A stretch of 64,000 nt of DNA from Prevotella sp. KH2C16 (GTDB taxonomy: Bacteria > Bacteroidota > Bacteroidia > Bacteroidales > Bacteroidaceae), in contig NZ_FOOW01000006.1 in NCBI RefSeq assembly GCF_900113305.1, positions 75,005 to 139,004 on the forward strand, read 5' to 3'. The position numbers were made by a program, and so were the translations under genes. The notes beneath the pieces were generated by a model. It worked only from the letters and a program-made list of their open reading frames with translations. It made no database searches and had not been told where the DNA came from. Below, in pieces: positions 28,440-62,202 of this stretch. Every line of letters begins with the position of its first letter. Position 1 is the stretch's first letter.

Positions 28440-28456
28440 CTTTCATTTCCTCCTTG

Positions 28457-29734
28457 TTAGTAAGTTTCGTTCCATGAGGGGGTGCTCGCCCCATATCTGT
28501 GCAGCACCGGAATCACATTCCGCTCGAAGTCGTCGGTGGAATTGTTAGTATCCTGGAATATCAGGGCACCGTTGTCGCGACGCAGGGTGTCGCCGTTCTC
28601 GTCGAGGCTAACCTTGCGCACCACGCCCTGCCCGCAATAAGTGGCACCCACCCAGGTAATGCCGGCGTCGAGCACGGCACGCACGCGCTTGCCCGACGAC
28701 ATCCCCTCGTTGCGTACACACTCCACGGCGTCGAGCACATACTTGATGGGTATCTTCGCATAGAGCGTCCGACTGTTGGGCTTGCTCAGGTCGGTGGTGT
28801 GCATGGAGGGGTCGTTTACGGGGTCGTAGGACACGCCCTTGGGCACCTGGAACATGCAGTAGGCCGGACCGAAGACCGACATCAGATACTGCTTCAAAGT
28901 GCCCTTGCCGGCCGAACCGTTATAGAACACATGCAGCATGTCGGTGGCCTTCTGATCGGGATACTGCGTATTGTCCATGTTGAATTCAAACTCTGCGTGA
29001 GAGCAGTCTACCGGCGAGTTGGGATTATAGGTGTCAGACTTGTGGTTGACGGCGAACTGTGCCACCACCGCCGATTCTCCCGGCTGAAGCGGATAGTCGG
29101 TGCCCGTGCCGGGAAACTTCCATACCCGCTCGGCATACACATAGTCGATGCCGTCGGCCTCGGGCCATACGGGCAGGGTCTTGGTGGCCGTGCCGGGGTA
29201 GAGATTACCGAAATAGATGCCGTCGAGATACTGTATTTTGGAGGAGTTGTTATACACCTCGAAGAACTGATCGCGGAAGTAAGAGTTACCCACAGGGGGC
29301 CTGGAACCGGAGAAATAGAGTTCCTTGAAGACCAGCGGGCTCACTTTCAGACCCTGTACGGTAATCGTGATGTCGGTCTGTCCGTTCATCAGGGCGATGT
29401 TCACCTGATTGCCCGCCACATAATACTCTGTGCCCTCGCCGTCGAGAGCCGATCCGGATACGGACACGGTGTAGATGCCGGGTACGACATCGGCCACGCT
29501 CACCGTCTCGCCGTCAAACTCCTTCACATAGTGATAGCCGTCCTCATAGTTGTCGAGCTTCACCTTCAGACCCGAGGCCGAAGCTATGTTCTCCACCTGG
29601 ATGTCAAGGTTCACCTTCACCTTAAGGGGGGCGACCCTTTCGGAATCGCTCACGCTGCGCCACTCGTCGCAACCGGCAAGGAGCAGCACGCATGCCGTGA
29701 GCAATCCCGCTATATAATATTTTCTTTGTCTCAT
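28457..29734 (-). CDS. DUF4876-type surface or periplasmic lipoprotein
   Basis: The 425-residue lipoprotein has lipobox LAGC (Cys22). An Ig-like beta-domain follows (about 35-135: LKVKVNLDIQVEN, GETVSVADVVPGIYTVSVSG). A larger domain (about 140-425) begins LVFKELYFSGSRPP and holds FFEVYNNSSKIQYLDGIYFGN, a lamin-tail-like pattern. This matches DUF4876 proteins of Bacteroidales. It probably works as the substrate-binding partner of the TonB receptor encoded 23 nt upstream, analogous to SusD without its TPR fold. That role is inference from context. Confidence 0.75.
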   Translation of the reverse strand: MRQRKYYIAGLLTACVLLLAGCDEWRSVSDSERVAPLKVKVNLDIQVENIASASGLKVKLDNYEDGYHYVKEFDGETVSVADVVPGIYTVSVSGSALDGEGTEYYVAGNQVNIALMNGQTDITITVQGLKVSPLVFKELYFSGSRPPVGNSYFRDQFFEVYNNSSKIQYLDGIYFGNLYPGTATKTLPVWPEADGIDYVYAERVWKFPGTGTDYPLQPGESAVVAQFAVNHKSDTYNPNSPVDCSHAEFEFNMDNTQYPDQKATDMLHVFYNGSAGKGTLKQYLMSVFGPAYCMFQVPKGVSYDPVNDPSMHTTDLSKPNSRTLYAKIPIKYVLDAVECVRNEGMSSGKRVRAVLDAGITWVGATYCGQGVVRKVSLDENGDTLRRDNGALIFQDTNNSTDDFERNVIPVLHRYGASTPSWNETY

Positions 29735-29757
29735 ATTCTTTCTATTCTTGATGTTGG

Positions 29758-32601
29758 TTATATCTTCAGGGCCAGCTCCATACCAAAGTAGAAGCGGTTG
29801 TTCAGCTTGTAGAACTCGCCGGGGCTGCGCCTGCTCTCCCGACGGGGATGGCTACGGAACATGTTGTTCGCAAAGAACGACATGCGCAGCAGGTCGCCGA
29901 TTTCCTTCGTAATATTGATGTTGAAGCAGAAGTAGGGGCTGAACGACTCCTTGATGGAGTAAGAGCGGCTGCTCGAGGTGTCCAAGAGATAGTCGAGGCC
30001 GGCCTCCCTCAGCTGTTGGGTCGTGGTGTACTGCCCCGGGGTGAACCAGTTGACCCGTCCGTCGGCCAGCGCGATGTAGCCCGTGGGGATGGAGTCGTTG
30101 TGGTAGACGCCCCAGTCAGACTGATTCCAGATGGCCTGTGCCGTGAGGGTTACTACGAATCCGATGCGCGGAATATTGTGGGTGGCGCGCAGGGTGGTAA
30201 CGAACTGCTGGTCGTAATAGTCCACCTTGCGCTTGTCGTAGACGGCGATGTCCTTGCGGGCGGCGGGTGCCTCGGGGGTGTTGTCATAGAAATCGTAGGC
30301 CTCGGAGTAGTGGCTGCTCCTCATCCAACTGCCGCTCAACTGGAACGAAGTGCGGATGGACTCGATGCGGGCGACATCAATCTCGAACTCCACGCCCTTG
30401 GTATTGACGAAGTTGTTATTGGTGGGAGTATAGTAGCTAGACAGCACGGGGTATCTGCCCGTGAGCTCAAGGGCTCCCGCGGCGTTGCGCCCGTAGACAT
30501 CATAGGAAACGGGTACGAAAGTAGCCAGCGTCTTGTTCAGCGCATAGCCGTTCTTCAGCCGCTCCAAGAAACCCGTGAGCCCTACCCTCACCTTGCCCAG
30601 ACGGAGGTCAAGTCCGACCTCCGACTTGTAGTTGCGGGCTATCTTCAGGTCGCGGTTCTGCGAATTGAAGATGCGCGTGGTAGTAATAAACCTGCGGTCG
30701 GCCTCGGGTAAGTTCTCGTTGGCGAGCTCGTTCAGGTTGATGTATTCGAAGTAAGCGTTCTCGGGATAGAGATATAATAAGGTGGGCATCTTGGCTGCAA
30801 TGCCGAAGCCGCCACGCAGGGCGAGCACCTCGGGCACGATGTCAATCGAGGCGTTGAGGCGCGGCGAGAGCACGCTGCCAGCCACCGAGACATGGTCGAA
30901 GCGCAACCCTGCCTGCAGGTTCAGCGTATGGGTGCCACCGATCATCCAGTTGAAGTTGTCCTCCACGAAAGCTCCCAACTGGTTGATATACGGGATGTCC
31001 TTGTAGGCACGGGGACGGAAGGCGGCGTTCTTCTGCTGCAGGTTGCGGTAAGGCGGACGCTGGGAGTCGTAGGTCTTGCCGTCGCCCTCGTTGCCGTCGG
31101 TCTTGAAGTCCACGCCCAGCAGGATGCGGTTATTCACCCGCCCGAAGCGCTTGAAGAAGTTGGCCGTGAGCTTGGCATAGAAGTTCACTTCCCTGCTGTC
31201 GATGTCGTAGCGTCCCAGGTACGACGAGGGCAGGTACAGGGCGTAGTGCCCAGCGTCGTCCTCTCCGAAGCGGGTAATCTCCGTGCCGCCGGCCGTGAAG
31301 AGGTGCTCGCCCGCCACATTGGAGAGCACGGCACCGTCGGTCATGGTCATGGAGTAAGGCGCGTTGGCCGACGAGTAGGCCGTCTCGCTGTAGCTATCCT
31401 TGGCGGTGTAGCTGGCCGAGACCACATAGCGCAGGTTTTCCAGCCATCCGCGGCCTATGTTCCAGAGGCCGTTGGTGTTGAAGCGGAGCCCCACATCCTG
31501 CCCCCGGTGGCTGGTAAGCTCAATCTCGTCGTCGGGATTGCGGTCGCGGGCATCCTTTCCATAGAAGAAGTCGAGCGAGGTATTGCTACGCAACTTGTTG
31601 CCGAAGAAAGTGTTGGAATAGAGTACCTTGGCCGTGAGCCGTTGATAATGGTCGTAGCTCTCCGTCGGGTTCTTGATGTTGTAGGCGTAGTCAGCACTCA
31701 GGTTGAGCGATCCGCCACGCTTGCCGAGACTGAAGCCGCCGCCCACGCTGCCCTGATAGACATTGGGGTTGGCCTTGGCACGGATGCGCAAGGGCTCGCG
31801 GCCGGCCTTGGTGTGGATGATGACGGCACCCGAGGTGAGGTCGCCATACTCCACCGATGGGATGCCGCGTACGACCTCCACATTCTCGATGTTCTCCGTG
31901 GAGATGGCACGCACATCGAATCCCGAGTTGGGCGAGCTGCCTCCGGCCAGCGAAACGGCTCCCCCGGCCACCGTGGGATTCAGCGAGCTCAGGTTGGCGT
32001 TGTTGGAAATCGGGGCTCCGTCCTGGATGATGGCCGTGCCCAGCGAGTTCAGCTCGGTGTCCCGCCCGCCATCCACCTGCCGGATGTTAAGCGTCTTGGC
32101 CGAGTTCAGATCCTGATTCTTGCTGACGCCACCGGGCGTCAGAGCCATCAAGTCGGCAAGGTTCGTGGCCTGCATGTGGTCCATAGCCTGCCGTGAGATG
32201 TTGCTCGAGGTAGCCCTGCCGGCCGCACTCTGCTGTGCCGTAACCACCACCTCTTTCAGGCGGAAGTCCTCGTCCTGAAGGACAAAGTCCAGATTCTTCA
32301 TGCTCCCGCTGATGTTCAGCTCACGGTCTAGCTGCGCCTTGCCCAGGAACGAGACGCGTACCTTCACCTTGCCCACGGGCACATTGTTGATGGTGTAACG
32401 CCCGCCGCCCGCCGTCGTAGCCGCCAGCCCATAGTCAGGAAGCGAAATCGTGGCGAAGTCAAGAGGCCTCTGCCGCCCCTCGGAAACCTCGTAAACCGTC
32501 CCTGACAGGCTGTACTTCTGCTGGGCTACGGCCACAGCGGCATGAGCCAGTATCAGGAAAGCGAGCAGGCATATCCTGCCCCAGTCGTTCTTTCTTCTCA
32601 T
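29758..32601 (-). CDS. TonB-dependent outer-membrane receptor with N-terminal carboxypeptidase-like domain
   Basis: The 947-residue protein has a signal peptide (about 1-27), a CarboxypepD_reg-like domain (about 32-115), a plug domain (about 125-255, with LADLMALTPGGVSKNQ and VEVVRGIPSVEYGDLTSGAVII) and a 22-strand-type barrel ending YFGMELALKI. It imports a ligand across the outer membrane using TonB energy. It is not of the SusC/RagA subfamily and its operon partner is DUF4876, not SusD. So the cargo is more likely a metal complex, cofactor or peptide than a glycan; that is inference. First gene of a four-gene operon. Confidence 0.88.
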   Translation of the reverse strand: MRRKNDWGRICLLAFLILAHAAVAVAQQKYSLSGTVYEVSEGRQRPLDFATISLPDYGLAATTAGGGRYTINNVPVGKVKVRVSFLGKAQLDRELNISGSMKNLDFVLQDEDFRLKEVVVTAQQSAAGRATSSNISRQAMDHMQATNLADLMALTPGGVSKNQDLNSAKTLNIRQVDGGRDTELNSLGTAIIQDGAPISNNANLSSLNPTVAGGAVSLAGGSSPNSGFDVRAISTENIENVEVVRGIPSVEYGDLTSGAVIIHTKAGREPLRIRAKANPNVYQGSVGGGFSLGKRGGSLNLSADYAYNIKNPTESYDHYQRLTAKVLYSNTFFGNKLRSNTSLDFFYGKDARDRNPDDEIELTSHRGQDVGLRFNTNGLWNIGRGWLENLRYVVSASYTAKDSYSETAYSSANAPYSMTMTDGAVLSNVAGEHLFTAGGTEITRFGEDDAGHYALYLPSSYLGRYDIDSREVNFYAKLTANFFKRFGRVNNRILLGVDFKTDGNEGDGKTYDSQRPPYRNLQQKNAAFRPRAYKDIPYINQLGAFVEDNFNWMIGGTHTLNLQAGLRFDHVSVAGSVLSPRLNASIDIVPEVLALRGGFGIAAKMPTLLYLYPENAYFEYINLNELANENLPEADRRFITTTRIFNSQNRDLKIARNYKSEVGLDLRLGKVRVGLTGFLERLKNGYALNKTLATFVPVSYDVYGRNAAGALELTGRYPVLSSYYTPTNNNFVNTKGVEFEIDVARIESIRTSFQLSGSWMRSSHYSEAYDFYDNTPEAPAARKDIAVYDKRKVDYYDQQFVTTLRATHNIPRIGFVVTLTAQAIWNQSDWGVYHNDSIPTGYIALADGRVNWFTPGQYTTTQQLREAGLDYLLDTSSSRSYSIKESFSPYFCFNINITKEIGDLLRMSFFANNMFRSHPRRESRRSPGEFYKLNNRFYFGMELALKI

Positions 32602-32801: not shown

Positions 32802-34466
32802 TCAAATCCCTTTGAGCCCGATTTCCATAACTTGGCGTTCAAAATCAACCCTGTTACCTATAGCTCCGTTCTTTATACGAGCACGATATGCATAAATAGA
32901 ATTGGGCGAATAGTCGAGGAATTCCGCTATATTAGAACTTTCGGTTATCCCCAGACGAATCAACGCGAATATCCGCAGCGGGGTATTCAGCGTACCGCTT
33001 TCCTTAGGAAAGGTCTTACAATCATCGCGAAGCAGCTTGTTGAAGTCCACTATAAAAGAAGGGAAGAGATGCAGGAACACGGTATCAAAATGATTCAGAA
33101 GCCCTTTCATCTCGTCTTCCTTCAACTGTTCAGAGTCCGTAAACTGGATTGTATACTTTATTTGGTTAGCCTTGAGATTCCTATTTACTTTTATGCGGAA
33201 GTTGTCCAGCTTCTCTATATACTTCAAGCAAATGTGAAAGAAATATGTGATATACTCGTCTTTTACCCTGTTGCTATCCACAAGCCGCGCATTCAAAAGC
33301 TTCAACTCTTCATTAAGCCCCGAAAGAGCCTCATAGGCCTGCTGCACATCGACCTTGCTCTTGGTAATAACCTTTCTGTCTTTCAGGACAACAAAGAGCG
33401 CTACCAACAGGAAAACGGAAAGAAAACCTACGATGACGGACAAAGATAACAGATTGGTATTCATGTTGTTTAGCCTTCCGCGATAGTTCTCGTTAATCGA
33501 TGTCAGAATCGGAACTACCACCCAACTACGCTTGTGGGGACTGAAATAAGATATACAGCGCCAGGAAACATCTATATAGTTAAAGGCTCGTTTCAAATCC
33601 CCATCATTCTGCATGATCTGCGCAAGATTCCAAAGTGATGTCTGGTTGTTAATGGCGCATTCCAATTCACATATAGCTCCTAAAGCCAGCCAATACTTTT
33701 GCTTTTCCGGCTTGTGCCTGATCCGATATATTTCTGAACGGTAATAAGCCATATTTGCGTATCCGCGCGTGCGTGGCCTGACATTCTTCATCCACTCGTC
33801 ATTTATCCTCATAGCCTTTTCATACTCTTGCTTGAAGAACAGAGATATACAACGGCGCTGATAATAAAGTTCGTATTCGGGCTTCAAGGTACTATTAACC
33901 GAGTCAAGATATGTGAGTGCCAGACCACGGTATCTTTGCCTCAATACCTCGTCCGAACAATATTGCTCCAGCTCTCGGTACAAATGATTCTTATAGTAAT
34001 AATAGGTATTGAGCTGTTCGCCCTTAAATAACCTTGGGTTTACATTCTCAAAATATTGTTCTGCATTGGTAAAATAGCCCGAGACGACATATTGATGAGC
34101 GACAAGCAGATTGCAGTAAGACTCCAAATCCGACCTTTTCATCTTCTTTGCCAAGTCTATACAGTTAAACAGAAATGTCAGTGCCAAATCATTCTGGAAT
34201 ACCCGATACTCCAAATATAATGCCATCGAATGTTCGTAAAGCCCATCCGCGTTTCTTGCCAACCTTAATAATAGCTTCTGTTTCTCAATTGACTTCTGTT
34301 TCTCTGCTTTATACTTTTCCGTGTTGGAAATGGCCTCATCCAGCTTTGTATATACAGACCTAATGTCTTCTGCACATGCCGAAAAAGGCATAATTATTAA
34401 TAAAAGGCTAATCACCTTATGAATTACCAGCCTGTCAGCACCGCCTATGTCTCGAATTCCGCACAT
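32802..34466 (-). CDS. Membrane-anchored TPR regulator (DUF6377-like) with C-terminal helix-turn-helix
   Basis: The 554-residue protein has an N-terminal signal or anchor (about 14-30), a TPR-like helical sensor region (about 35-325), one membrane segment (about 340-362), a coiled coil (about 370-405) and a cytoplasmic C-terminal domain. That domain ends in a putative helix-turn-helix: LIRLGITESSNIAEFLDYSPNSIYAYRARIKN (about 500-535), similar to LuxR-type recognition. It resembles DUF6377 proteins, which sit beside nutrient operons and probably sense outside and bind DNA inside without phosphotransfer. It is divergent from the seven-gene isoaspartyl-peptide operon, with direct repeats between them. 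The exact start among several nearby candidates is uncertain. Confidence 0.75.
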   Translation of the reverse strand: MCGIRDIGGADRLVIHKVISLLLIIMPFSACAEDIRSVYTKLDEAISNTEKYKAEKQKSIEKQKLLLRLARNADGLYEHSMALYLEYRVFQNDLALTFLFNCIDLAKKMKRSDLESYCNLLVAHQYVVSGYFTNAEQYFENVNPRLFKGEQLNTYYYYKNHLYRELEQYCSDEVLRQRYRGLALTYLDSVNSTLKPEYELYYQRRCISLFFKQEYEKAMRINDEWMKNVRPRTRGYANMAYYRSEIYRIRHKPEKQKYWLALGAICELECAINNQTSLWNLAQIMQNDGDLKRAFNYIDVSWRCISYFSPHKRSWVVVPILTSINENYRGRLNNMNTNLLSLSVIVGFLSVFLLVALFVVLKDRKVITKSKVDVQQAYEALSGLNEELKLLNARLVDSNRVKDEYITYFFHICLKYIEKLDNFRIKVNRNLKANQIKYTIQFTDSEQLKEDEMKGLLNHFDTVFLHLFPSFIVDFNKLLRDDCKTFPKESGTLNTPLRIFALIRLGITESSNIAEFLDYSPNSIYAYRARIKNGAIGNRVDFERQVMEIGLKGI

Positions 34467-34549
34467 ATACCAAACTCTAATTTCAACGACTTAAAGGTAA
34501 TAAAAAAATATATATAAATTATAAATTCACTATATTTTTTATCATTTTC

Positions 34550-34669
34550 ATCCATATTTTAAGAAGAACCATCCATATTTCTATTAAAAACATTATCATA
34601 TAAGATATTGATAACTTGCAGTTTCCAGATTTACAGATACTCATATCATCCATATTTTTATCCATATCT
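34550..34669. promoter_or_regulatory. Four ATCCATAT direct repeats, candidate operator cluster
   Basis: ATCCATATTT at 34550-34559, 34571-34580 and 34648-34657, and ATCCATATCT at 34660-34669. The first pair are 21 bp apart (two helical turns) and the last pair 12 bp apart. They sit in the AT-rich divergent region between the DUF6377-like regulator and the operon starting at 34744, all in the same orientation. They are the obvious candidates for the regulator's binding sites. Confidence 0.6.
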
Positions 34670-34743
34670 ACAACCTTAAGATAAAAAAAACAACGAATTT
34701 TGTAACATCTCTAAATGCAGACAAAAAACAATCTATAAATCTT

Positions 34744-35772
34744 ATGAAACTAAAAAGAAACATTTTTGGATTTGCTACGCTAAGTTTGGTCGCTTCTGTC
34801 TTCAGCTTGTCAAGTTGTACGACAGATGATGTTGAAGCTGAAGTTGTCGATGAGAACTTACCGCAGCAAGCTGTTTTTGACTTTACCAATGGTGAGGCAA
34901 TAACTGGATGGGGATTAGAAATCCCAGGTGGAAGCAGTGGAACGCCCGTTAACAGTATAACAACAAAAGAAGTTACCCTGACAACAATAAATAATGGTTC
35001 TACGCCCATACGCATTTATTCTACTGGCTCGGGAGTCTTGGACCTGCGTTCTTATTCTGGTGATATCCTGATATTCTCCGTTCCTGAGGGCTATATCATT
35101 ACAGGTATTAACTGGTCTTCCGCCAATGAATCTACAATGGACGCATGGAGCCCGTCATTCGGAACTATTGCCGGAGGTATATGGACAGCTCCGACAGACG
35201 GCACTTTGAGGTCCGTATCGTTTACTGCAACAGGAACTACGCGCATGAATGTACTTACAGTTACATACGAGAAAGGTTCTGCTACACTTGTAAACGAGCC
35301 CCCCACTCCAGAGCCGCCTCCCACCCCTGAATCACCAACATCGCTTTCGTTTGACTTCACCTCATCTACAGCCATTATAAGTTGGGGATTCGAAGTTCCA
35401 GGAAAGAGCGAAGGAGTTGTACTGAGCAAGCCAATTACGGAAGGGAAGTTTACAATCACTCCTACTAATGCAGCAGGGGCTACAGAGGCTACAAGTATCC
35501 GATTCTACACTTCCAAGGGTGGAGCAACAGATCTTAGGATTTATACCGGAGACACCATGACTTATAGTGTGCCAGAAAACTATGTCATCAAAGAACTGTC
35601 ATGGACTTCTGCCAATGCAGAGACTATAGATGCTTGGACGACAGATGCCGGCACATTGAAAAATGGCGTTTGGACGGGTGAGGCCGGTAAAAAGTATTCC
35701 AGCATTAAATTCACGGCTACTGGTACGACGCGGATAGATGTTCTTACTGTAACTTATCAACCAGCTGAATGA
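34744..35772 (+). CDS. Lipoprotein with two tandem beta-rich domains, unknown function
   Basis: The 342-residue lipoprotein (lipobox LSSC, Cys25) is built from two copies of a domain of about 140 residues (about 42-180 and 205-342), joined by a Pro/Thr linker (PPTPEPPPTPESPTS). Each copy has FDFT near its start, then GWGLE/SWGFE, IRIYSTGS/IRFYTSKG, LDLRSYSGD/TDLRIYTGD, NWSSANESTMDAW/SWTSANAETIDAW and ends FTATGTTRMNVLTVTYE/FTATGTTRIDVLTVTYQ. I do not recognise the family; the folds look like beta-sandwich binding domains. First gene of the operon, overlapping the transporter start as ATGA at 35769-35772, so a surface binding role for the same substrate is likely. Confidence 0.7.
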   Translation: MKLKRNIFGFATLSLVASVFSLSSCTTDDVEAEVVDENLPQQAVFDFTNGEAITGWGLEIPGGSSGTPVNSITTKEVTLTTINNGSTPIRIYSTGSGVLDLRSYSGDILIFSVPEGYIITGINWSSANESTMDAWSPSFGTIAGGIWTAPTDGTLRSVSFTATGTTRMNVLTVTYEKGSATLVNEPPTPEPPPTPESPTSLSFDFTSSTAIISWGFEVPGKSEGVVLSKPITEGKFTITPTNAAGATEATSIRFYTSKGGATDLRIYTGDTMTYSVPENYVIKELSWTSANAETIDAWTTDAGTLKNGVWTGEAGKKYSSIKFTATGTTRIDVLTVTYQPAE

Positions 35773-37163
35773 TGATTCTGATAGGAACGATAATATCCAT
35801 TATATTTATCATTGCCGTAGCATACGCGCTGACGCATAAGTTCAATCCCCAGATTGTTCTGCTTACCTCTGGGTTGCTTATGCTCGGGACGGCAATGATA
35901 CTGGGCACCTTTACCATCGATGTGCAGAAAGATCTTGGTGGTAACGGTACGGGCTGGATTGTCTTCGATATCTTCAGGCTTATAAAGGAGGTGATGAATA
36001 CCAACATGGGGCGCGTCGGCCTGATGATCATGACCATTGGCGGCTATGTCGCATACATGAAGAGTATTCAGGCAAGCGATGCCTTGGTTTATGTGTCAAT
36101 GCGTCCTTTGATGTTATTCCGAAAGGCACCAGATTTAGCGGCAATACTCGTGCTGCCAATAGGTCAGATGCTTTTTGTATGTACACCAAGTGCAGCTGGT
36201 TTAGGTTTGCTGCTCGTTGCTTCTGTATTTCCCATCCTCGTTAATCTTGGCGTAAGTCGTTTAACAGCGGTTTCTGTTATTTCTGCATGTACAATCTTTG
36301 ACATGGGGCCAGGATCGGCTAATACTGCTCGTGCGGCAGAGCTGGCAGGCATGACCAATATGCAATATTTTGTGGAACATCAACTTCCACTTGCCATACC
36401 TGTAACAATTCTATTAATGGTTTTATATTTTGCATGTAATCGTTACTTTGACGAGAAAGACCGTGCACACGGCATCGTTTCCGAAGCCGTTACAGATGTT
36501 AAGAACATGAAGGTGGACGCACCATTGATATATGCCATTCTCCCGGTATTGCCACTGGCCTTGCTGATAATATTCTCCAATTATTTTCAATTGTTTGGCA
36601 GTCTGATAGTCCTTGACACTACTACGGCTATGTTTATTTCTCTTTTCGTTACAATCAGCTTTGAGCTAATCCGGTATCGTTCCGTCCGAAAGACCTTTGC
36701 CCAGGTAAAAGCTTTTTGGACAGGCATGGGGACAGTATTTGGAAATGTAGTAACATTGATTATCTCCGCCGAGATTTTCTCGAAGGGACTTATTTCTTTG
36801 GGATTTATCGATTCTATTGTTAATGCCTGCACGCATATGGGGTTCCCCGGAGCATTAGTAAGCGTCGTTATCATTGCTGTCATCTTCATGGCTGCTATAC
36901 TTATGGGAAGCGGCAACGCCTCTTTCTTCTCATTCGGACCGCTCGTCCCAGACATAGCTGCCAAGGTGGGCATGAAACCCGTAGATATGTTATTGCCCAT
37001 GCAACTGTCATCCTCTATGGGAAGGGCTATCTCTCCAATTGCCGGGATTATCGTAGCTGTTGCCGAAGTGGCGGGAGTAAAACCCAATGATTTAGTAAAG
37101 CGCAATGCCATTCCTTTAACTACAGGCCTATTAGCTATGGTCATTATTCATTATATCTTCTAA
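35769..37163 (+). CDS. DcuC-family C4-dicarboxylate transporter
   Basis: The 464-residue inner-membrane protein has about 12 hydrophobic segments and DcuC-family motifs, including LPIGQMLFVCTPSAAGLGLL, FDMGPGSANTARAAEL, GSGNASFFSFGPLVPDIA and SSSMGRAISPIAGI. DcuC proteins exchange fumarate, malate, aspartate or succinate under anaerobic conditions. Its place directly before isoaspartyl dipeptidase suggests uptake of aspartyl peptides or exchange of aspartate for succinate or fumarate; relatives in this family may carry amino-acid-like substrates. It is coupled by a 4-nt overlap to the lipoprotein and lies 5 nt before iadA. Confidence 0.88.
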   Translation: MMILIGTIISIIFIIAVAYALTHKFNPQIVLLTSGLLMLGTAMILGTFTIDVQKDLGGNGTGWIVFDIFRLIKEVMNTNMGRVGLMIMTIGGYVAYMKSIQASDALVYVSMRPLMLFRKAPDLAAILVLPIGQMLFVCTPSAAGLGLLLVASVFPILVNLGVSRLTAVSVISACTIFDMGPGSANTARAAELAGMTNMQYFVEHQLPLAIPVTILLMVLYFACNRYFDEKDRAHGIVSEAVTDVKNMKVDAPLIYAILPVLPLALLIIFSNYFQLFGSLIVLDTTTAMFISLFVTISFELIRYRSVRKTFAQVKAFWTGMGTVFGNVVTLIISAEIFSKGLISLGFIDSIVNACTHMGFPGALVSVVIIAVIFMAAILMGSGNASFFSFGPLVPDIAAKVGMKPVDMLLPMQLSSSMGRAISPIAGIIVAVAEVAGVKPNDLVKRNAIPLTTGLLAMVIIHYIF

Positions 37164-37168
37164 ATATT

Positions 37169-38314
37169 ATGTTTACACTAATAAAAAACATTCACCTTTA
37201 TACACCTGAAGACAAGGGCATACAAGAAATTCTCTTGGCCGGTGAAAAGATTGTCGCCATTGGCGACAGGCTTGAAATAGCCGGTACAGAGGTGAAAACT
37301 ATAGACGGACAGGGCATGACTTGCATGCCCGGACTCATCGACCAACATGTACATGTCATCGGAGGTGGCGGCCAGACAGGATATTTCTCATTGGCTCCGG
37401 AAGTGCCTCTGTCCAAACTGATTGAAGCTGGAACAACGACCGTTGTCGGATTGTTGGGGACAGACGGTTTCGTAAAAACCCTACCTCAGTTATATGCCAA
37501 GACCAAAGGTTTGTGCCAAGATGGCATCAGTGCCTATATGCTGACAGGGTTCTATGGGCTTCCTACTCCAACAATCACCTCTTCAATAGCAGAAGATATG
37601 ATCTACATAGACCGCTGTATCGGCTGCAAGATAGCAATAAGCGATGACCGCTCCTCCTATCCCACAAAGCAGGAACTACTACGCATCATCCAACAGGTGC
37701 GCTTAGGGGGATTCACATCTGCGAAAGGGGGCATCATGCATGTTCATCTCGGGGCTTTGTCTACAGGCATTGAAGTCCTCATAGACATTGCAAGGGAAAT
37801 ACCAAACCTGACCACATACATCTCGCCTACTCACATGGGGCGTACCCATGACTTATTCTTGCAAGGTATCGAGTTTGCCAAACTGGGCGGCATGATAGAC
37901 ATCAGTACCGGTGGTACAAAATATGCCGAGCCTCATGAAACCGTAATGGAAGGCCTTGAAGCCGGAGTTCCCATTGATTTGATGACATTCTCCAGCGACG
38001 GGAACGCCGGAGTGCGTCGTAAGAATGCTGAAACAGGCGAAGACACTTATCTGTTGGCTCCACTGCATAAAAATCTGGAGCAAGTGGTCTGCCTCATCAA
38101 GGAAGACCAGATAGCACCAGAGGAGGCTTTCAAACTCATTACCGTCAACCCTGCGAAGAACATGAAGTTGCATGGAAAGGGAAGAATAAGTGTCGGGGTT
38201 GATGCAGACCTTACCTTCTTCGATGACCAGTGGAACCTGCAAGGTGTCTGGGCACGCGGCATAGAGATGATGCATGAAAGGAAAGTTATCAAGAAGGGCA
38301 ATTTCGAACAATAA
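37169..38314 (+). CDS. iadA: Isoaspartyl dipeptidase (beta-aspartyl peptidase, M38)
   Basis: Cytoplasmic amidohydrolase of 381 residues that cleaves beta-aspartyl (isoaspartyl) dipeptides to aspartate and an amino acid. Metal sites are visible: DQHVHVIGG (first His pair), the carboxylated Lys in CKIAISDDRSS, HVHLGA, SPTHMGR, and the catalytic Asp in FSSDGN. The substrate loop GGGGQTGY matches IadA. Length is normal. No signal peptide. In this operon it would be the last step after outer-membrane entry and peptide trimming, and it releases aspartate that the adjacent DcuC-type carrier could handle. Confidence 0.93.
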   Translation: MFTLIKNIHLYTPEDKGIQEILLAGEKIVAIGDRLEIAGTEVKTIDGQGMTCMPGLIDQHVHVIGGGGQTGYFSLAPEVPLSKLIEAGTTTVVGLLGTDGFVKTLPQLYAKTKGLCQDGISAYMLTGFYGLPTPTITSSIAEDMIYIDRCIGCKIAISDDRSSYPTKQELLRIIQQVRLGGFTSAKGGIMHVHLGALSTGIEVLIDIAREIPNLTTYISPTHMGRTHDLFLQGIEFAKLGGMIDISTGGTKYAEPHETVMEGLEAGVPIDLMTFSSDGNAGVRRKNAETGEDTYLLAPLHKNLEQVVCLIKEDQIAPEEAFKLITVNPAKNMKLHGKGRISVGVDADLTFFDDQWNLQGVWARGIEMMHERKVIKKGNFEQ

Positions 38315-38327
38315 CCGAAGCGTGATT

Positions 38328-39746
38328 ATGAAAAAGTTTTTGCTAACACTATTGGGATTCCTGCTTATCAATGCGACTGCCTATAGTCAGGATGAGATCG
38401 ACGAGGTGGATGCCAGCGAGATGTCGGAAGAAACTGACAGAGAAGCCAATGACACACAAAAGGCTTCTATCAATCCATATCGTCTGGGCAACGGCATCCG
38501 CCTGATTGCCGGAAACGGGAATAACCTTGTTCTTTCCGGACTTGTACAGACGACTGCCAGCACCAAGAAATATGGTGATATAGACAAGCATTATAATCGT
38601 TTTAGAGTGCGCCGTGCACGCGTGCGACTTGATGGAACGGCCTTGGGCAGCAAAATCCGATACCGTGTAGGGCTGGATCTTGTCAAGGGGAGTGAGACTG
38701 ATGATGACGGTGCCGGCTCTTTACTTCAGGATGCATGGATTGGATACCGTCCGTGGGGAGACAACAGAATGCAGATTTCATTTGGCCAGCGTTCCACCCC
38801 TACTGACAATATTGAGTTATCTATGTCGTCCCATACATTATCTTTTGTAGAACGAAGCAGAATAACATCTGTATTCGCTACAATCCGTGAAATCGGTTTC
38901 TTCGTAGAGTCGAGTCTAAGGTTAGGCCATACACAAGGTATTCTTCGTCCGTCTATCGCTATTACTGACGGCGACGGGCCAATATCCGGGGGCAAGCGTT
39001 ATGGTGGACTTAAATACGGAGCCCGCATCAACTATCTTCCCTTCGGGACATTTCGCAACTATGGTCAGACTCGCGAGAGTGATATGGTCTATGAATTTAC
39101 TCCAAAGCTGAATATCGGAGTTGCCTATAGTTATAATCAAGGTGTCAGCGACAGGCGGGGCGGTCGGGCATCCGGCGACATTCTCTATATGGACGCAAAA
39201 GACCACTATAAGCTGCCCGACATGGGGAAACTCGTAGCTGACATTAACTTCAAATATGCCGGATTCTCTTTTATTGCTGAGTTTGCAAAGACTTGGGGAT
39301 ATGTGTCAGACAAGATAACTCAGCGCGTCCGTACGGCAGGTACGACAACAACAGACTTTGCCTTTGAAAGAACCATTATTGACGCTGCCGGCAATCAGAC
39401 CACCCAAACTGTTCAGGATAAAGAGAGCTACATAAAGAACAGAATGCTGTTAGGCTGGGGCCTGAATATCCAGATGGGATATATGTTCCGCAGCCTTTGG
39501 AGCATCGACGCCCGCTATACACATATTCAGGCTGATGATGTTTCATTCCTGAACAACGACCTGTATTTTAACCGTCCCGACTATGTCGACCTTGGCATCT
39601 CCAAGTACCTTACACATAGCTATGCCAGTAAACTCCAACTTACTGTAGGATGGGGCAACCCAGATGGACAATGCAGGACTCCGGATAGTCGCTACTATAG
39701 CGGCAATGAATGGAATGTAGACCTAATGTTTCAACTAAAATTCTAA
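38328..39746 (+). CDS. Outer-membrane porin (phosphate-selective porin O/P type)
   Basis: The 472-residue protein has a signal peptide (about 1-20, NATAYSQ), an acidic N-terminal segment (DEIDEVDASEMSEE) and a porin O/P-like barrel. It contains FRVRRARVRLDGTALGSKIRYRVGLDL, RMQISFGQRSTPTDN and a terminal strand VDLMFQLKF. The start at 38328 (MKKFLLTLLGF) gives a proper signal sequence. Upstream in-frame ATGs would overlap iadA. It probably forms a channel for the operon's substrate. Porin O/P proteins in Bacteroidota are not always phosphate-specific, so no ion is assigned. It follows iadA by 13 nt. Confidence 0.82.
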   Translation: MKKFLLTLLGFLLINATAYSQDEIDEVDASEMSEETDREANDTQKASINPYRLGNGIRLIAGNGNNLVLSGLVQTTASTKKYGDIDKHYNRFRVRRARVRLDGTALGSKIRYRVGLDLVKGSETDDDGAGSLLQDAWIGYRPWGDNRMQISFGQRSTPTDNIELSMSSHTLSFVERSRITSVFATIREIGFFVESSLRLGHTQGILRPSIAITDGDGPISGGKRYGGLKYGARINYLPFGTFRNYGQTRESDMVYEFTPKLNIGVAYSYNQGVSDRRGGRASGDILYMDAKDHYKLPDMGKLVADINFKYAGFSFIAEFAKTWGYVSDKITQRVRTAGTTTTDFAFERTIIDAAGNQTTQTVQDKESYIKNRMLLGWGLNIQMGYMFRSLWSIDARYTHIQADDVSFLNNDLYFNRPDYVDLGISKYLTHSYASKLQLTVGWGNPDGQCRTPDSRYYSGNEWNVDLMFQLKF

Positions 39747-39754
39747 GGAAAACG

Positions 39755-41287
39755 ATGAAAAAGCATATCTTGTTTTTATCACTCATCATGGCTATGACAC
39801 TACAAAGTGCTATGGCTCAACAACCTGGAAAGGTTACGCGCAAATGGTTTCCTGATCCAGATATAAAAATAGAGTCTCCGGCCTTCACTACTGGTAAATA
39901 CTATACGACATACAAGGGCATGAAGAAGTATCTTCAAAAGCAACTTGCCGCATACCCTCAGTTAATGGACATCACCTCTATTGGCAAGACCCAAAAAGGC
40001 AGGGAGATACCGATGGTTACGATATCCGACAAAGCTTCTTCTCAGACTAAGCTCAGAGTATTATTTACCGGAGCAATGCACGGTGACGAGCATGCCGGTA
40101 CAGAAGGACTGATGTGGTTTATCCATCAACTTGGAGCAGACGCTTCCACTCGGGAGTTGTTGACCAAGATTGATTTCTATATCATCCCAATGCTAAATGT
40201 AGATGGCTCCGAAGCCGACACTCGCTACACACATAACGGCACAGACCCTAATCGTGATCACACACGCTTGTCCACGCCCGAAATAACATGCCTGCATAAG
40301 GTGGCTACAGATGTCAAGCCGCATTTGTATGTGGATTACCATGAGTTCAAGCCCCTGCGTACTTCCTACGAAGAGATTTCTGACCGTATTATCTCCAATC
40401 CCAATGATTTCATGTTCCTTTACAGCTCTAATCCCAATGTATATCCGGAGTTAACAGAGCTGATAGAACAGGAGTTTATCCCCAACACAAGGAAGATGGC
40501 AGAGAGCTGGAATCTGAGAAATTCCATTTACTACACAACCAGAGGAGGCAGCGACGGAACCATTATGAATGTTGGAGGACATTCTTCCCGTTCTTCAAGC
40601 AACATCATGGCCTTGCGTGGATGTGTGTCTATGCTTATGGAGATACGCGGCATAGGACTTGGAAAAACTTCTTATCTGCGCCGTGTAAACACGATTTACC
40701 AGCTGTGCCAGTCCTATTCCCAAACTGCATTTAATAATAGTAGTCGCATCATCGGCAGCGTGGAGAAAGCCGAAAGACAAAACCGCCCTGTCGCCATCGC
40801 ATATAGCATAAAAACGGAGAAAAACCAGCCGTTCCTTTTCTTGGATCTGCTGAAGAACGAGATTATAACCTATCAAGTGGATGCCAAACCAGCCAAAGAA
40901 CTGAAGGTTACCAAGAAAGTCTCCCGTCCTAAAGCATATGTGATTGATGGTAGGCAGACTCTTGCAATTGATCTTATCAAGAAGTTCGGCATCAGATATG
41001 AAGAGTTTAGGCAGCCCCGGCAGCTGGATGTAGAAGCCTATCGCGTAAAGTCTTCGGTAACCCAGAAAACGGAACTGCTGAATATACATCCAGTAGCCGT
41101 AAAGGTTCAGCCCGAAACGCTTCATGCTACTCTCCCTGAAGGAAGCATTCTTATTCCGATGAGCCAACCCTTGTTTACGCTGGCAGCAATTCTCTTAGAG
41201 CCTGAATGTGTCAACAGCTTTGTTTATATGCAAGTTATTGACGCACAACTAAATGAATGTTTGCCCGTATATCGTATAAATGAATAA
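39755..41287 (+). CDS. Secreted M14-family zinc carboxypeptidase
   Basis: The 510-residue protein has a signal peptide (about 1-23, SAMAQ) and an N-terminal M14 domain (about 50-320). Zinc ligands are His109 and Glu112 (AMHGDEHAG) and His196 (VDYHEF), with catalytic Glu296 (LMEIRGIG). The substrate-binding Arg lies in DPNRDHTR. A C-terminal beta-rich region of about 190 residues follows. It trims C-terminal residues from peptides outside the inner membrane. Between two porins and after iadA, it fits a role in reducing isoaspartyl-containing peptides to sizes the transporter and dipeptidase accept. Start chosen at MKKHILFLSL. Confidence 0.88.
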   Translation: MKKHILFLSLIMAMTLQSAMAQQPGKVTRKWFPDPDIKIESPAFTTGKYYTTYKGMKKYLQKQLAAYPQLMDITSIGKTQKGREIPMVTISDKASSQTKLRVLFTGAMHGDEHAGTEGLMWFIHQLGADASTRELLTKIDFYIIPMLNVDGSEADTRYTHNGTDPNRDHTRLSTPEITCLHKVATDVKPHLYVDYHEFKPLRTSYEEISDRIISNPNDFMFLYSSNPNVYPELTELIEQEFIPNTRKMAESWNLRNSIYYTTRGGSDGTIMNVGGHSSRSSSNIMALRGCVSMLMEIRGIGLGKTSYLRRVNTIYQLCQSYSQTAFNNSSRIIGSVEKAERQNRPVAIAYSIKTEKNQPFLFLDLLKNEIITYQVDAKPAKELKVTKKVSRPKAYVIDGRQTLAIDLIKKFGIRYEEFRQPRQLDVEAYRVKSSVTQKTELLNIHPVAVKVQPETLHATLPEGSILIPMSQPLFTLAAILLEPECVNSFVYMQVIDAQLNECLPVYRINE

Positions 41288-41316
41288 TAATCGACAATAT
41301 AAAATACATCCAAAAT

Positions 41317-42549
41317 ATGAGAAACAAAATTTTTCTTTCCGCTCTGATGTTCCTGTCTGTCAACATGGCATGGAGCCAGTCGTTGCATAGCGAGGCTGAA
41401 AACACCCTTACGGACGGCATTCTGAATCTCGACTTAGGAGGCCAGGGCAACAGGGTTCGCATTGGAGGATTCGTCTCCGCAGGAGGACACTTTACGGAAA
41501 TAAAGAACGCCGAGTCGGATAATGGATTCAATATTGACAACGCCTTCCTTTCCTTAGAAGGCTCTTTCCTGAATGACAAGTTAGGCTTCTTCCTGCAGGC
41601 AGACTTCGCCGACAGCTATCCCCTACTGGATGCTTATGTTACTTACCGACCCATAAAGGATCTCGTATTCTCCGTCGGACAGAAGCAGACCTTTACGAAC
41701 AGCCGCGACCTGATGCTACATGACCAAAGTACAGCCACGGGTGAGCATTCGCCGATGAGCCAGGAGTTCAATGAAAGAGGGCGTGAATTGGGAGCCTATG
41801 CCGAATACCGTCTTCCAACGACACGCCTGGGAGTAGACCTCGGCCTTGCCGTAACAAGTGGCGACGGTCGTAATTCCTTCGGCTCGTCCAGTACTGATCC
41901 TGATAATGGAAGCTTGAAATACGGCGGTCGTGTCACGGTCTATCCGATGGGATATTTCAAAAGAGGCAACGAACTCGTATTCTTCGACTTCATAAGAGAG
42001 GCTACTCCAAAGCTTGCCATTGGCGGAGCCTTCAGCTATAATAACGGCGCAAGCAACGCAAAGGGTGAAGGACACGGGGATTTCACCATGTACGACAGGG
42101 AGGGCAATGCCGCATACCCAGGACTTCGCAAGCTCACGGCCGACCTCCTCTTCAAGTGGCAAGGCTTCACCTTCCTGGCAGACTACACGAATACTACCGG
42201 TGCCAAGCTTGACAACCTCTATACGGCAGCTAATGTCAACGCCAAGCTCCAGCCCGAAGAAATCAGCCAGTATCTCGCCCTCGGCAACGGCCTTGATGTC
42301 CAGGCTGGCTACATTACGAAGTCCCTATGGGCTGTCAACTTCGGCTACAGCTATGTAAAGCCGGAATTTGCAGAAGTGGCCAACTCTGTCCTGAGGAGAA
42401 TGTCTTCCTATGACATCGGCATTTCAAAGTTCTTCTGCAAGAACACATTCAGGCTGCAACTACTCGGTAATTACACACATTACCACAAGGAGGTCATGAC
42501 GCCTTATAAGAATCGATCCATTAAAATGAATCTTCAAATTATGTTCTGA
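41317..42549 (+). CDS. Second outer-membrane porin of the operon
   Basis: The 410-residue protein has a signal peptide (about 1-21, NMAWSQ) and a porin O/P-like barrel: GFFLQADFADSYPLLDAYVTYRP, LVFSVGQKQTFTNSRDLM and terminal strand MNLQIMF. It differs clearly from the porin at 38328, sharing only the general plan (SRDLM versus the TDNIEL loop), so the two probably have different selectivity. Codon use is closer to the GC-rich flanks than in the genes before it. It starts 29 nt after the carboxypeptidase gene and ends 1 nt before the hydrolase gene. Confidence 0.8.
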   Translation: MRNKIFLSALMFLSVNMAWSQSLHSEAENTLTDGILNLDLGGQGNRVRIGGFVSAGGHFTEIKNAESDNGFNIDNAFLSLEGSFLNDKLGFFLQADFADSYPLLDAYVTYRPIKDLVFSVGQKQTFTNSRDLMLHDQSTATGEHSPMSQEFNERGRELGAYAEYRLPTTRLGVDLGLAVTSGDGRNSFGSSSTDPDNGSLKYGGRVTVYPMGYFKRGNELVFFDFIREATPKLAIGGAFSYNNGASNAKGEGHGDFTMYDREGNAAYPGLRKLTADLLFKWQGFTFLADYTNTTGAKLDNLYTAANVNAKLQPEEISQYLALGNGLDVQAGYITKSLWAVNFGYSYVKPEFAEVANSVLRRMSSYDIGISKFFCKNTFRLQLLGNYTHYHKEVMTPYKNRSIKMNLQIMF

Positions 42550-42550
42550 T

Positions 42551-43495
42551 ATGAATAGACTGATTAGAAACACTTGGACATGTCTCTGCCTCCTGCTAAC
42601 GACACAATGCCTTGTCGCATGCTGGGAGGATGATGTGCTGCCCCCGGAGGACACGCAGACGGCAGCTACCGTCACACTGACTCAGGACGGGAACGAACAT
42701 CAGATAGTCTATAATGGATTCGAGGCACTCAAAGACAAACCCGTTACCGTATATTATAACATTCCATCAAGCGGAGACATGACGAAAATGCCCGTTCTCT
42801 TCATCTTCCCAGGCGAAGATCGCAGTGCAAAAGAGCATATGGCACTATTCACTGACTGGGCTCGCCGGCAGAAGGTAATGCTCTTCGCCTTCGAATTTCC
42901 CACTGCCTATTATCCGACGACCACCGAGTATATCTTAGGCGGCATGAATACGAGGCAAAGCAGCGAAGGGCTCACGGCTAAGGAAAAGTGGAACTTCAAC
43001 TATGTAGAATCCTTTTTCAAGTCTGTTCAACAATTTACGAAAACCACCCAGACCACTTTCGACATGTGGGGGCATAGCGCTGGCGCCCAGTTTGTCCATC
43101 GATTCTGCACTTTCATGGAAGATACCCATGTCAATAGAGCCATAGCGGCCAACTCTGGTTGGTACACGATGCCTGATGCCGACTTGTCCTTCCCCTATGG
43201 ATACAAAGAAGTTACAGATGTGGACTGGAGTCATCAACTGCCAAAAGTGTTTGCACAAAAACTATACATACAACTTGGCGGTGCTGACACAAGCACGGAG
43301 GGACTGAACAACACCACGGGTGCAATGTCCCAGGGCTCCACGAGACTTGAGCGAGGACAGCATTATTTCACGACTTCACGGAATACAGCAAGTAGGAAGA
43401 ACCTGCCGTTTAATTGGTCTATAACCATCGTGCCTAACATTGGACATTATGCCTCAGGAATGGCGCAGGCCGCCATGGACACTTTGAATTATTAA
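42551..43495 (+). CDS. Alpha/beta-hydrolase-fold lipoprotein
   Basis: The 314-residue lipoprotein (lipobox LVAC, Cys24) has a short Ig-like start (ATVTLTQDGNEHQIVYNGF) and an alpha/beta-hydrolase domain. The nucleophile elbow is GHSAG (in DMWGHSAGAQFV), an acidic position is likely in LGGADTS, and the His is in VPNIGHYASG. It resembles feruloyl-esterase or polyhydroxybutyrate-depolymerase-like secreted hydrolases (FIFPGEDRSAKEH). It may remove an ester or act as a peptidase on the operon substrate; the substrate is unknown. Last gene of the seven-gene operon. Confidence 0.75.
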   Translation: MNRLIRNTWTCLCLLLTTQCLVACWEDDVLPPEDTQTAATVTLTQDGNEHQIVYNGFEALKDKPVTVYYNIPSSGDMTKMPVLFIFPGEDRSAKEHMALFTDWARRQKVMLFAFEFPTAYYPTTTEYILGGMNTRQSSEGLTAKEKWNFNYVESFFKSVQQFTKTTQTTFDMWGHSAGAQFVHRFCTFMEDTHVNRAIAANSGWYTMPDADLSFPYGYKEVTDVDWSHQLPKVFAQKLYIQLGGADTSTEGLNNTTGAMSQGSTRLERGQHYFTTSRNTASRKNLPFNWSITIVPNIGHYASGMAQAAMDTLNY

Positions 43496-47777: not shown

Positions 47778-49328
47778 TCAATCCCAGTTGGGGTTCTGCT
47801 TCAGCACACCCTTTGACAGGTCTATCTCCTCAAGCGGAATCGCCCACAGATAGTCGCGGGCTGGATTAAACTTGCGCTGCTCCACCAAGAACTTCTCACC
47901 ATTGGGGCGCATGCCGTAGACGGGCTTCGTTACGGCAGCCTCCGTAGTCTTGTAGCTCCGGGTGTCGAACAGATGGATGCCTTCGAAGGCCAGTTCCAGA
48001 CGGCGCTCCAGCCTGATGGCGGCACGCATCTCGTCCTTTGACAATCCAGGGGCAAGCCTGGGCAGGTTGACACTCTTGCGCTGGCGGATCGCATTCACGG
48101 CATCATAGACCTCCTTGTCGGGAGCCGCGAGTTGCTCGTTGCGGGCTTCCGCATAGGTGAGCAACACCTCCGCATAGCGGATGAAGATGAAGTTGGTCCA
48201 GTCGTAGTTGTTGATTCCGTCGTTCTCGGGGTTCATATACTTGCGCATACAGTATCCAGTGCGAGTATGGTTGCCATCGCCGATACTGTTGGTGGTGTAC
48301 TCGTGCCCGGCAATCATGTCTCCATGATGGAGAATAGAGGCCGCCAGACGGGGGTCTCTGTTGGCAAATGGATGGGCCGGATCATAAAGCGGCGACTCCT
48401 TGATAGACTTACCATCGGTGCAAGGGTAGGCATCCACCATATCCTGTGTTGGCGACAGGGCCTCCCAGCCGCCCATGACGATGGGGGCGAAGAACTGTCC
48501 TATCCAGCTTCCTTCATTTGAATTCTTGGGATTCGACAAATATTCGCGGTCGAAGATTATCTCGTTACAGGTCTCGGCAACGGGCTGGAACAGGCCTGCA
48601 TAGTCGTCATAGAGACCATACTTGCCCATATCCATCACCTTCTTGGCCGCCTTTTCGGCTTCATCATACTTATGGGCATAGAAAGCCAGACGAGCCTTGA
48701 GGGCATAGCAGGCTCCCGCACTGGGCTTGCCGTGGTCGTCAACCTGACGGATATCAGGCAGCGCGGGGGCAGCCTTGTCGAGCAGTCCGACGATGTGGTT
48801 ATAGGTTTCCTCCTCCGTGGCGCGTGCCGGCATGGGTTCCTTCAATGCCAAGGGATGATCGACGATGGGCACGCCGCCCATATACTTCAGCAGGGTGGAA
48901 TAGAAGAAAGCTTCCAGAAACTGCACCTCACCCGTGATTTCGGCTCTGTAGGCATCGTCCATCGGCACTTCGCCTATATGTTGGTAGAACACCTGGCAGC
49001 GGCGTATCCCGGCATAGGCTGCATCCCAGAGTTGCTTGAAATGGGGATTGGACGATACGGCCGTACCTGCAGACAGGGATCCCTGCTCTGCTCCCACATG
49101 CACGGGAACGGCATTGTCCGTATAGCAGTCTGTCATGATAGTGTGGTTCTCCGGTTCCACCAGAAAGAGGTAGATGCCGTTTACATATTCCTCTGCCTCG
49201 GCAGCCGTCTTCCAGAAAGATCCGTCAGACTGCCGGTCGGTGGGCTCGCGCTGCAGGAAACTGTCGTTACAAGAACAGAACAGTACGATAGCCAACAGGC
49301 AAGCCATGATACTATATTTTGTCTTCAT
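47778..49328 (-). CDS. SusD/RagB-family surface lipoprotein
   Basis: The 516-residue lipoprotein (lipobox FCSC, Cys20) has the RagB/SusD start NDSFLQREPTDRQSDGSFWKT. TPR-like helices follow (FLEAFFYSTLLKYMGGVPIVDHPL, CYALKARLAFYAHKYDEAEKAAKK). The family C-terminal half (NFIFIRYAEVLLTYAEARNE, IRLERRLELAFEGIHLFDTR) is present and it ends LKQNPNWD. It binds oligosaccharide or peptide at the surface and acts as a lid on the SusC transporter encoded 13 nt upstream. The ligand is not determinable; the fucosidase at 53714 is the only glycosidase nearby. Confidence 0.93.
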   Translation of the reverse strand: MKTKYSIMACLLAIVLFCSCNDSFLQREPTDRQSDGSFWKTAAEAEEYVNGIYLFLVEPENHTIMTDCYTDNAVPVHVGAEQGSLSAGTAVSSNPHFKQLWDAAYAGIRRCQVFYQHIGEVPMDDAYRAEITGEVQFLEAFFYSTLLKYMGGVPIVDHPLALKEPMPARATEEETYNHIVGLLDKAAPALPDIRQVDDHGKPSAGACYALKARLAFYAHKYDEAEKAAKKVMDMGKYGLYDDYAGLFQPVAETCNEIIFDREYLSNPKNSNEGSWIGQFFAPIVMGGWEALSPTQDMVDAYPCTDGKSIKESPLYDPAHPFANRDPRLAASILHHGDMIAGHEYTTNSIGDGNHTRTGYCMRKYMNPENDGINNYDWTNFIFIRYAEVLLTYAEARNEQLAAPDKEVYDAVNAIRQRKSVNLPRLAPGLSKDEMRAAIRLERRLELAFEGIHLFDTRSYKTTEAAVTKPVYGMRPNGEKFLVEQRKFNPARDYLWAIPLEEIDLSKGVLKQNPNWD

Positions 49329-49341
49329 GATTATAATGCTT

Positions 49342-62051: not shown

Positions 62052-62078
62052 CTTTCTGAAAAACCGTTTTACTGATTG

Positions 62079-62086
62079 CAAACTTA
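62079..62086 (-). promoter_or_regulatory. -7 box of the giant fusion/AmpG operon
   Basis: Minus-strand TAAGTTTG matches TAnnTTTG, 28 nt before the start codon at 62051. It supports that start over the longer frame. Confidence 0.5.
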
Positions 62087-62128
62087 CAAAAAAAACGGGA
62101 AAACAGGGATAATTATAAGAAAAAACCG

Positions 62129-62136
62129 TATCTTTG
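62129..62136 (+). promoter_or_regulatory. -7 box upstream of the DUF4253 gene
   Basis: TATCTTTG, 67 nt before the start codon, divergent from the box at 62079-62086. No clear -33 element. Confidence 0.5.
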
Positions 62137-62202
62137 CCCGGATAAATAACGGGAAGAGAAGACAACTTTCCCGAAATAGCAACAAATCTAAAACTACAGG
62201 AC

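Follow-up and report, generated by a model that had tools for sequence, protein, structure and literature searches.

The 64,000-nucleotide stretch of Prevotella sp. KH2C16 analyzed here (contig NZ_FOOW01000006.1, positions 75,005 to 139,004 of the forward strand; referred to as the window, in whose own numbering all its coordinates are given) carries a block of eight genes encoding, among others, a PahZ1-like hydrolase, an M14-family enzyme and an IadA-like amidohydrolase. An earlier note on this DNA had described one divergent regulator gene and seven tightly packed genes, and all eight were confirmed. The spacing among the seven genes on the plus strand was -4, 5, 13, 8, 29, and 1 bases, in order. 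The starts of porin A (38328) and of the M14 enzyme (39755) were set by reading the Met codons and replace the mechanical starts of the open reading frames (ORFs). The features are as follows.

32802..34466, minus strand: DUF6377 / SusR-like sensor-regulator, divergent from the operon (PF19904, 250.8 bits)
34550..34669, plus strand: candidate operator with four copies of ATCCATATYT, between regulator and operon
34744..35772, plus strand: putative surface lipoprotein whose two halves resemble each other by eye; lipobox with acidic residues after it
35769..37163, plus strand: DcuC-family C4-dicarboxylate carrier (NF037994, 381.3 bits, cut-off 100)
37169..38314, plus strand: IadA-like binuclear amidohydrolase with an altered acyl pocket (TIGR01975, 364.6 bits, cut-off 331.25)
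38328..39746, plus strand: porin A, OprP/OprO-like by fold comparison of an AlphaFold2 (AF2) model
39755..41287, plus strand: M14 metallo-exohydrolase, N-terminal signal seen by eye (PF00246)
41317..42549, plus strand: porin B, second outer-membrane porin, with homologues at the same place in relatives
42551..43495, plus strand: PahZ1-like alpha/beta hydrolase, putative surface lipoprotein (matches to 9o7u and 6ve6; C-W-E-D-D after the lipobox, by eye)

The product of the last gene, called a hydrolase lipoprotein in the earlier note, could be named more precisely as a PahZ1 homologue. Two structures of poly(aspartic acid) hydrolase-1 were matched, 9o7u at E=1e-44 and 6ve6 at E=1.7e-41, whereas the match to LpqC, which is annotated only as a putative polyhydroxybutyrate depolymerase, was weaker; Pfam and NCBIfam gave no assignment. 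A profile built from four PahZ sequences gave 256 and 225 bits to the poly(aspartic acid) hydrolase-1 structures in comparison with 142 bits to LpqC. S176, D246, and H299 were invariant in the four rows of the alignment and are taken from it to be the Ser-Asp-His triad. A lipobox followed by acidic residues was seen by eye in the PahZ of the window and in that of the related locus L006 (loci and genomes of relatives carry L and G numbers). A type IX secretion tail scored over the cut-off in all seven flavobacterial-type PahZ proteins tested, which were chosen for their greater length with the shorter ones left out, and the PahZ of L006 was without such a tail. PahZ1, which has been studied on a synthetic polymer, cleaves beta-amide and not alpha-amide bonds of oligo-Asp, and the enzyme of Pedobacter KP-2 cut beta-tri-Asp but left alpha-tri-Asp and beta-di-Asp (PMC4456602). 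Because a PahZ1 homologue is present and PahZ1 has this bond preference, a beta-linkage in the substrate of the locus is supported.

The IadA-like protein of the window kept the metal ligands and the catalytic Asp, at H60, H62, K154, H193, H222, and D277 (equivalent to H68, H70, K162, H201, H230, and D285). The equivalents of T106, Y137, R169, R233, and D285 were also kept, and among the aligned IadA rows the contact positions showed two Tyr-to-Phe exceptions and one Thr-to-Ala exception. Q69 stood in place of E77, and G281 in place of S289. Among 33 distinct IadAs of the locus, the E77 position was occupied by Gln (15), Lys (17), or Thr (1), but it was Glu in all six IadAs from outside the locus (L067-L070, E. 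coli, and Fervidobacterium); the S289 position was Gly in 33/33. The fragment in L098, at a contig end, was left out of this comparison, and L008 and L031, which are the same contig, were counted once here and in the tallies of 44 loci given below. No compensating acidic residue was newly fixed at the 90% level in the clade of the 33 locus sequences. E77 of E. coli IadA is named as substrate-binding (PMC10206079). In Colwellia IadA, which is of the Glu-ligand type while that of the window is of the Lys-ligand type, the corresponding residue Glu80 binds the substrate nitrogen N11 together with Thr109, and the E80Q exchange left zero activity on beta-Asp-Leu (PMC5517026). Because the amine-binding Glu was lost in 33/33 while the metal ligands and the Tyr and Arg contacts were kept, the window enzyme looks active yet suited to an acyl group that lacks a free ammonium. 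The proposal that an ordinary isoaspartyl dipeptide is the final substrate is thus made doubtful by the residue at this position, and the locus is probably not a simple eater of aged peptides. No signal peptide was seen by eye in the IadA-like protein; therefore, a carrier must deliver its substrate.

DcuC was the only carrier of such a kind within the operon, and dcuC also lay directly upstream of iadA in relatives. Among 44 M14 loci searched by tblastn, DctA-like genes were found in seven and DASS genes in four. A DASS homologue was located 19-60 bases from pahZ in six loci. Two DctA-like proteins reached 511 and 503 bits, just under the cut-off of 513, and 295 and 303 of 638 bits against GltP, while the one DASS transporter scored was over its cut-off. 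Neither porin of the window matched Pfam, and porin B had no match in NCBIfam either; PF07396 was matched by nine of the 16 rows of the porin A family, the window row not being among them. The AF2 model of porin A, made like the alignment from a sequence five residues short at the N-terminus relative to the corrected start, had a mean predicted local distance difference test (pLDDT) of 75 and resembled OprP (Z 30.1) and OprO (Z 30.0), the next protein scoring 24.8. The model of the M14 enzyme (pLDDT 93) had a carboxypeptidase fold with a best Z of 28.8 over 250 residues. Its H109, E112, N166, R167, H196, Y259, and E296 were invariant in 24 rows, and they correspond to the HxxE+H zinc site, Asn-Arg, Tyr, and Glu of the funnelin metallocarboxypeptidases. 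The first lipoprotein (34744-35772) had no match in Pfam or NCBIfam; at comparable places, relatives hold LRR, Ig-like, or LTD lipoproteins.

We analyzed the distribution of these genes; presence counts from the stretches are lower bounds, as many stretches end at contig ends. IadA was found in 4 of 301 genomes of the family and in 7 of 296 genomes drawn from the phylum, the own genome included in both. These searches brought up five further genomes belonging to the family or class (three in the family search, two in the phylum search); in all of them dcuC lay beside iadA, and M14 and pahZ genes were within the stretch. As IadA is rare (4/301) and the other three carriers in the family have dcuC, M14, and pahZ too, the association is more than chance, and an iadA unlinked to the other genes, which the earlier note had named as refuting, was not found among these five. 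Four IadA genomes of other classes had an IadA that was 34-42% identical and no partner genes in the stretch; in three of them tblastn found an S51-like gene beside it, confirmed by Pfam in L068. In L069 (9730-14653), the distant IadA, an S51-like gene, and cyanophycin synthetase stand in a row, a normal cyanophycin cluster that was used as a contrast.

The pahZ profile led to 37 named loci, with iadA in 18, dcuC in 19, and M14 in 28; all 18 with iadA also had dcuC and M14. Among 393 whole genomes of the order, pahZ was present in seven, and of the six besides the own genome four had the unit and two (G326 and G381) had pahZ only. Outside the window, the probes detected the order dcuC-iadA-porA-M14-porB-pahZ in 13 loci, among them loci of Polaribacter, Winogradskyella, Lacinutrix, and Formosa, with another gene intervening before a partial second pahZ in L066. 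This shared order, together with the linkage in the relatives of the family or class, bears out the proposal that the genes form one unit. A second order, dcuC-iadA-pahZ-M14, was present in 11 distinct loci, including Bacteroides oleiciplenus, timonensis, stercorirosoris, and muris; SusC/SusD lay upstream in ten of these, and pahZ and M14 were a single ORF of 1007-1013 residues in eight. The M14-anchored search gave 11 of 395 genomes of the class, the own genome included, and in the seven newly fetched loci iadA was beside porin A in all, dcuC was present in six (the seventh runs off the contig), and pahZ in two. The habitats given for relatives (marine, gut, aquatic) are mostly taken from genus names or general background. 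In the PahZ tree, the pahZ parts of the dcuC-iadA-pahZ-M14 group formed one clade (100/100), and the KP-2 enzyme paired (97/94) with the PahZ of L063, which belongs to the same order as the window. Because 13 of the 46 inner branches were open forks and the window branch was long, only the fused clade, the group of the window, L006, and L060, and the KP-2/L063 pair were used. A DUF4886 (SGNH-like) gene was observed beside or near pahZ in L017 and L035, which lack iadA and M14 (the Pfam score in L035 was below the cut-off), and the Bacteroides fusion has this domain as well, placed between its PahZ and M14 parts.

Taken together, the gene block is read as a utilization locus for a water-soluble beta-linked C4-diacid polyanion, most likely beta-poly(L-malate), with a probability that we put at about 0.5. 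Beta-poly(L-malate) has the chain of beta-poly(aspartate) with O in place of NH and carries a terminal OH. Physarum, Penicillium, and Aureobasidium make this water-soluble polyester naturally, and it serves some bacteria as a carbon source (PMC9210645, PMC11905612). Malate is favored because the amine-binding Glu is lost and the transporters are of the C4-dicarboxylate type (DcuC, DctA-like, and DASS). From the observed gene content, order, conservation, folds, and active-site residues we infer the functional steps. The surface PahZ lipoprotein (which in some marine relatives bears a type IX secretion, or T9SS, tail) would cut the polymer internally, and the fragments would cross the outer membrane via the two OprP/OprO-type porins, or via SusC/SusD in Bacteroides. 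The periplasmic M14 enzyme would trim the fragments from the carboxyl end, DcuC would import dimers and monomers, and the cytoplasmic IadA-like enzyme, having lost the amine-binding Glu, would split the dimers to malate (or aspartate). The choice of polymalate draws on residues and transporters, with no reference gene for polymalate degradation found, and no degradation locus for this polymer was among the papers listed in the literature searches. A fuller proposal is put forward tentatively, at somewhat less than even odds: the unit would be the first recognised genetic system for eating beta-poly(L-malate), its IadA re-tooled by loss of the Glu and PahZ1 by origin a polymalate depolymerase, modular and spread horizontally in aquatic and gut Bacteroidota.

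Several points weigh against polymalate. PahZ1 is known from polyaspartate and not from polymalate, and IadA and M14 are both amide-hydrolase or peptidase families that fit peptides better than an ester polymer. The island of the window itself holds no DctA or DASS, and DctA is able to carry aspartate. A MocR-type regulator was found near 14 of the 44 M14 loci (by tblastn, with a Pfam check on L014 only), and the known effectors of MocR regulators are amino compounds or pyridoxal phosphate. The cast of genes also varies: among the 37 pahZ loci, the stretch shows M14 without iadA in ten and neither gene in nine, and five of the seven newly fetched M14-anchored loci have no pahZ in the stretch. 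The PahZ gene of L036 and L041 has a cyanophycinase (over the cut-off) on one side and an S46 peptidase on the other. The polymalate hydrolase of Comamonas is reported to be without serine- or metallo-esterase activity (PMC9210645), unlike PahZ or M14. For these reasons, a C4-diacid polymer is placed first with malate favored, and aspartate is kept as a serious rival. In this rival, PahZ would cut runs of beta-Asp, from aged Asp-rich protein or polyaspartate, to beta-Asp-Asp, which DcuC would import and IadA would convert to aspartate. It agrees with the sparing of beta-di-Asp by KP-2 PahZ1, which would pass on just the dimer that a working IadA would want (PMC4456602), with the IadA score over the cut-off and the retained ligands and contacts, with the MocR-type regulators and the S51 and S46 peptidases that flank PahZ in L036 and L041, and with an aspA homologue in the own genome (679.3 bits, cut-off 681.2), which likewise speaks against malate. 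However, the Glu that binds the amine is lost throughout the locus IadAs, a change of the kind that abolished the activity of Colwellia IadA (PMC5517026), and the accessory symporters tested were DctA-like and DASS, not GltP-like. Moreover, we know of no natural beta-polyaspartate. Use of beta-aspartyl polymers or peptides is possible, though less likely than the reading placed first. The gene pckA, for phosphoenolpyruvate carboxykinase, adjoins the cluster in L009 and L025 and fits malate and aspartate alike.

Other carboxylate conjugates without a free alpha-amine, such as N-blocked beta-aspartyl amides, citryl-type amides, or ester-decorated glycans, with PahZ as an ordinary esterase, would also explain the lost Glu and the S289G change, and pahZ does occur without iadA or M14 near DUF4886 genes (L017 and L035) or a SusC homologue (L036). 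However, the combination of two porins with one exo-acting and one endo-acting hydrolase points to a polymeric substrate with repeating acidic units, and no glycosidase is among the conserved core genes. We regard such conjugates as unlikely. Scavenging of cyanophycin, which the earlier note had listed among possible sources and in which the cluster would degrade cyanophycin and beta-Asp-Arg, appears highly improbable. Elsewhere, IadA and M14-family enzymes do act on cyanophycin dipeptides (PMC10206079), but the cluster is without a cyanophycinase by Pfam and NCBIfam, and the IadAs beside S51-like genes (L067-L069) are of the distant type, with the normal Glu and no dcuC, M14, or pahZ in the stretch. 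When ten cluster genomes were tested with TIGR02069, one was over the cut-off and the own genome reached 28.5 of 126.6 bits, and cyanophycin was set aside. As a separate observation, two loci from Bacteroidales metagenome-assembled genomes, L041 (6875-20082) and L036 (isolates Emb289P1bin57 and bin74), contain genes for a SusC homologue, a cyanophycinase, a PahZ-like protein, and an S46 peptidase, to which L041 adds M28, DcuC, and M14 genes further on; these are perhaps a separate cyanophycin or peptide locus.

The DUF6377 regulator would probably switch the operon on. It matched PF19904 and scored 444.8 bits against the NCBIfam SusR model NF058541, under the cut-off of 480, and a homologue was found by tblastn in six other M14 loci. 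The motif ATCCATATYT, picked after the repeats had been seen, had only four matches in 64 kb, all between regulator and operon, against 0.21 expected. No such array was found in 70 relative loci, six of which had scattered single copies, for instance inside the dcuC gene of L020 and, in L012, between porB and pahZ. A scan for sigma-70-type promoters gave 24 matches in comparison with 21.6 expected, and Rfam gave zero matches across the window.

The GC content per kilobase was 0.35-0.50 at 33-45 kb and 0.52-0.62 in the flanks at 24-33 and 45-52 kb. Because it is lower than in both flanks, the gene block is probably a low-GC island acquired from outside, as judged from composition. An empty insertion site was sought in five genomes of the same genus; lutAB was present, and no match to island or window-flank probes was found in the stretches. 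Adjoining the island on the minus strand, DUF6850, DUF4876, and TonB-dependent receptor genes stand in a row (26886-32601), possibly a further uptake locus. A SusC/SusD pair is located at 47778-52416 (minus strand), with an alpha-L-fucosidase gene near it on the opposite strand (53714-55012, plus). A Cas9 gene (RuvC_III, HNH_4, and Cas9 alpha-helical lobe) at 1361-5014 (minus strand) probably marks a type II CRISPR system at the window edge, and a 1312-residue ORF at 58263-62204 (minus strand) combines a family 2 glycosyltransferase, DUF4922, and a SpoIID domain, an odd combination.

The locus was compared with known systems. Its PahZ is homologous to PahZ1 of Pedobacter KP-2 and Sphingomonas KT-1 and keeps the Ser-Asp-His positions, but those systems are known from synthetic polymer work, whereas pahZ here belongs to a conserved locus and in some relatives is fused to M14. 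The IadA-like enzyme shares with the IadAs of E. coli, Fervidobacterium, Colwellia, and Leucothrix the family, the metal ligands including the type II Lys, and the Tyr and Arg contacts, and differs from the known enzymes in the E77 and S289 replacements described above. The cyanophycin utilization locus (Ben Hania 2017, as cited in PMC10206079) has in common with it an IadA-family enzyme, a transporter, and its occurrence in Bacteroidota, but the window is without cyanophycinase and has PahZ, M14, and porins. With SusC/SusD-type polysaccharide utilization loci it shares a surface lipoprotein enzyme, a SusR-like regulator, and, in the Bacteroides version, SusC/SusD itself, but it uses OprP/O-type porins and has a core without glycosidase. 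No paper on this gene combination was among those listed in the literature searches, with subscription journals mostly outside their scope. What is new is a conserved locus joining PahZ, M14, an IadA-like enzyme, porins, and a carrier, with an unusual proposed substrate class; its kind, a Bacteroidota nutrient-utilization locus, is known. What sets the two candidate dimers apart is an OH against an NH3+ and an ester against an amide linkage, and the residue that recognizes the OH or NH3+ is the one that has changed. The substrate of the conserved unit would be either polymalate or a natural beta-aspartyl polymer, and the locus may thereby offer PahZ1, studied so far on a synthetic polymer (PMC4456602), a natural role.

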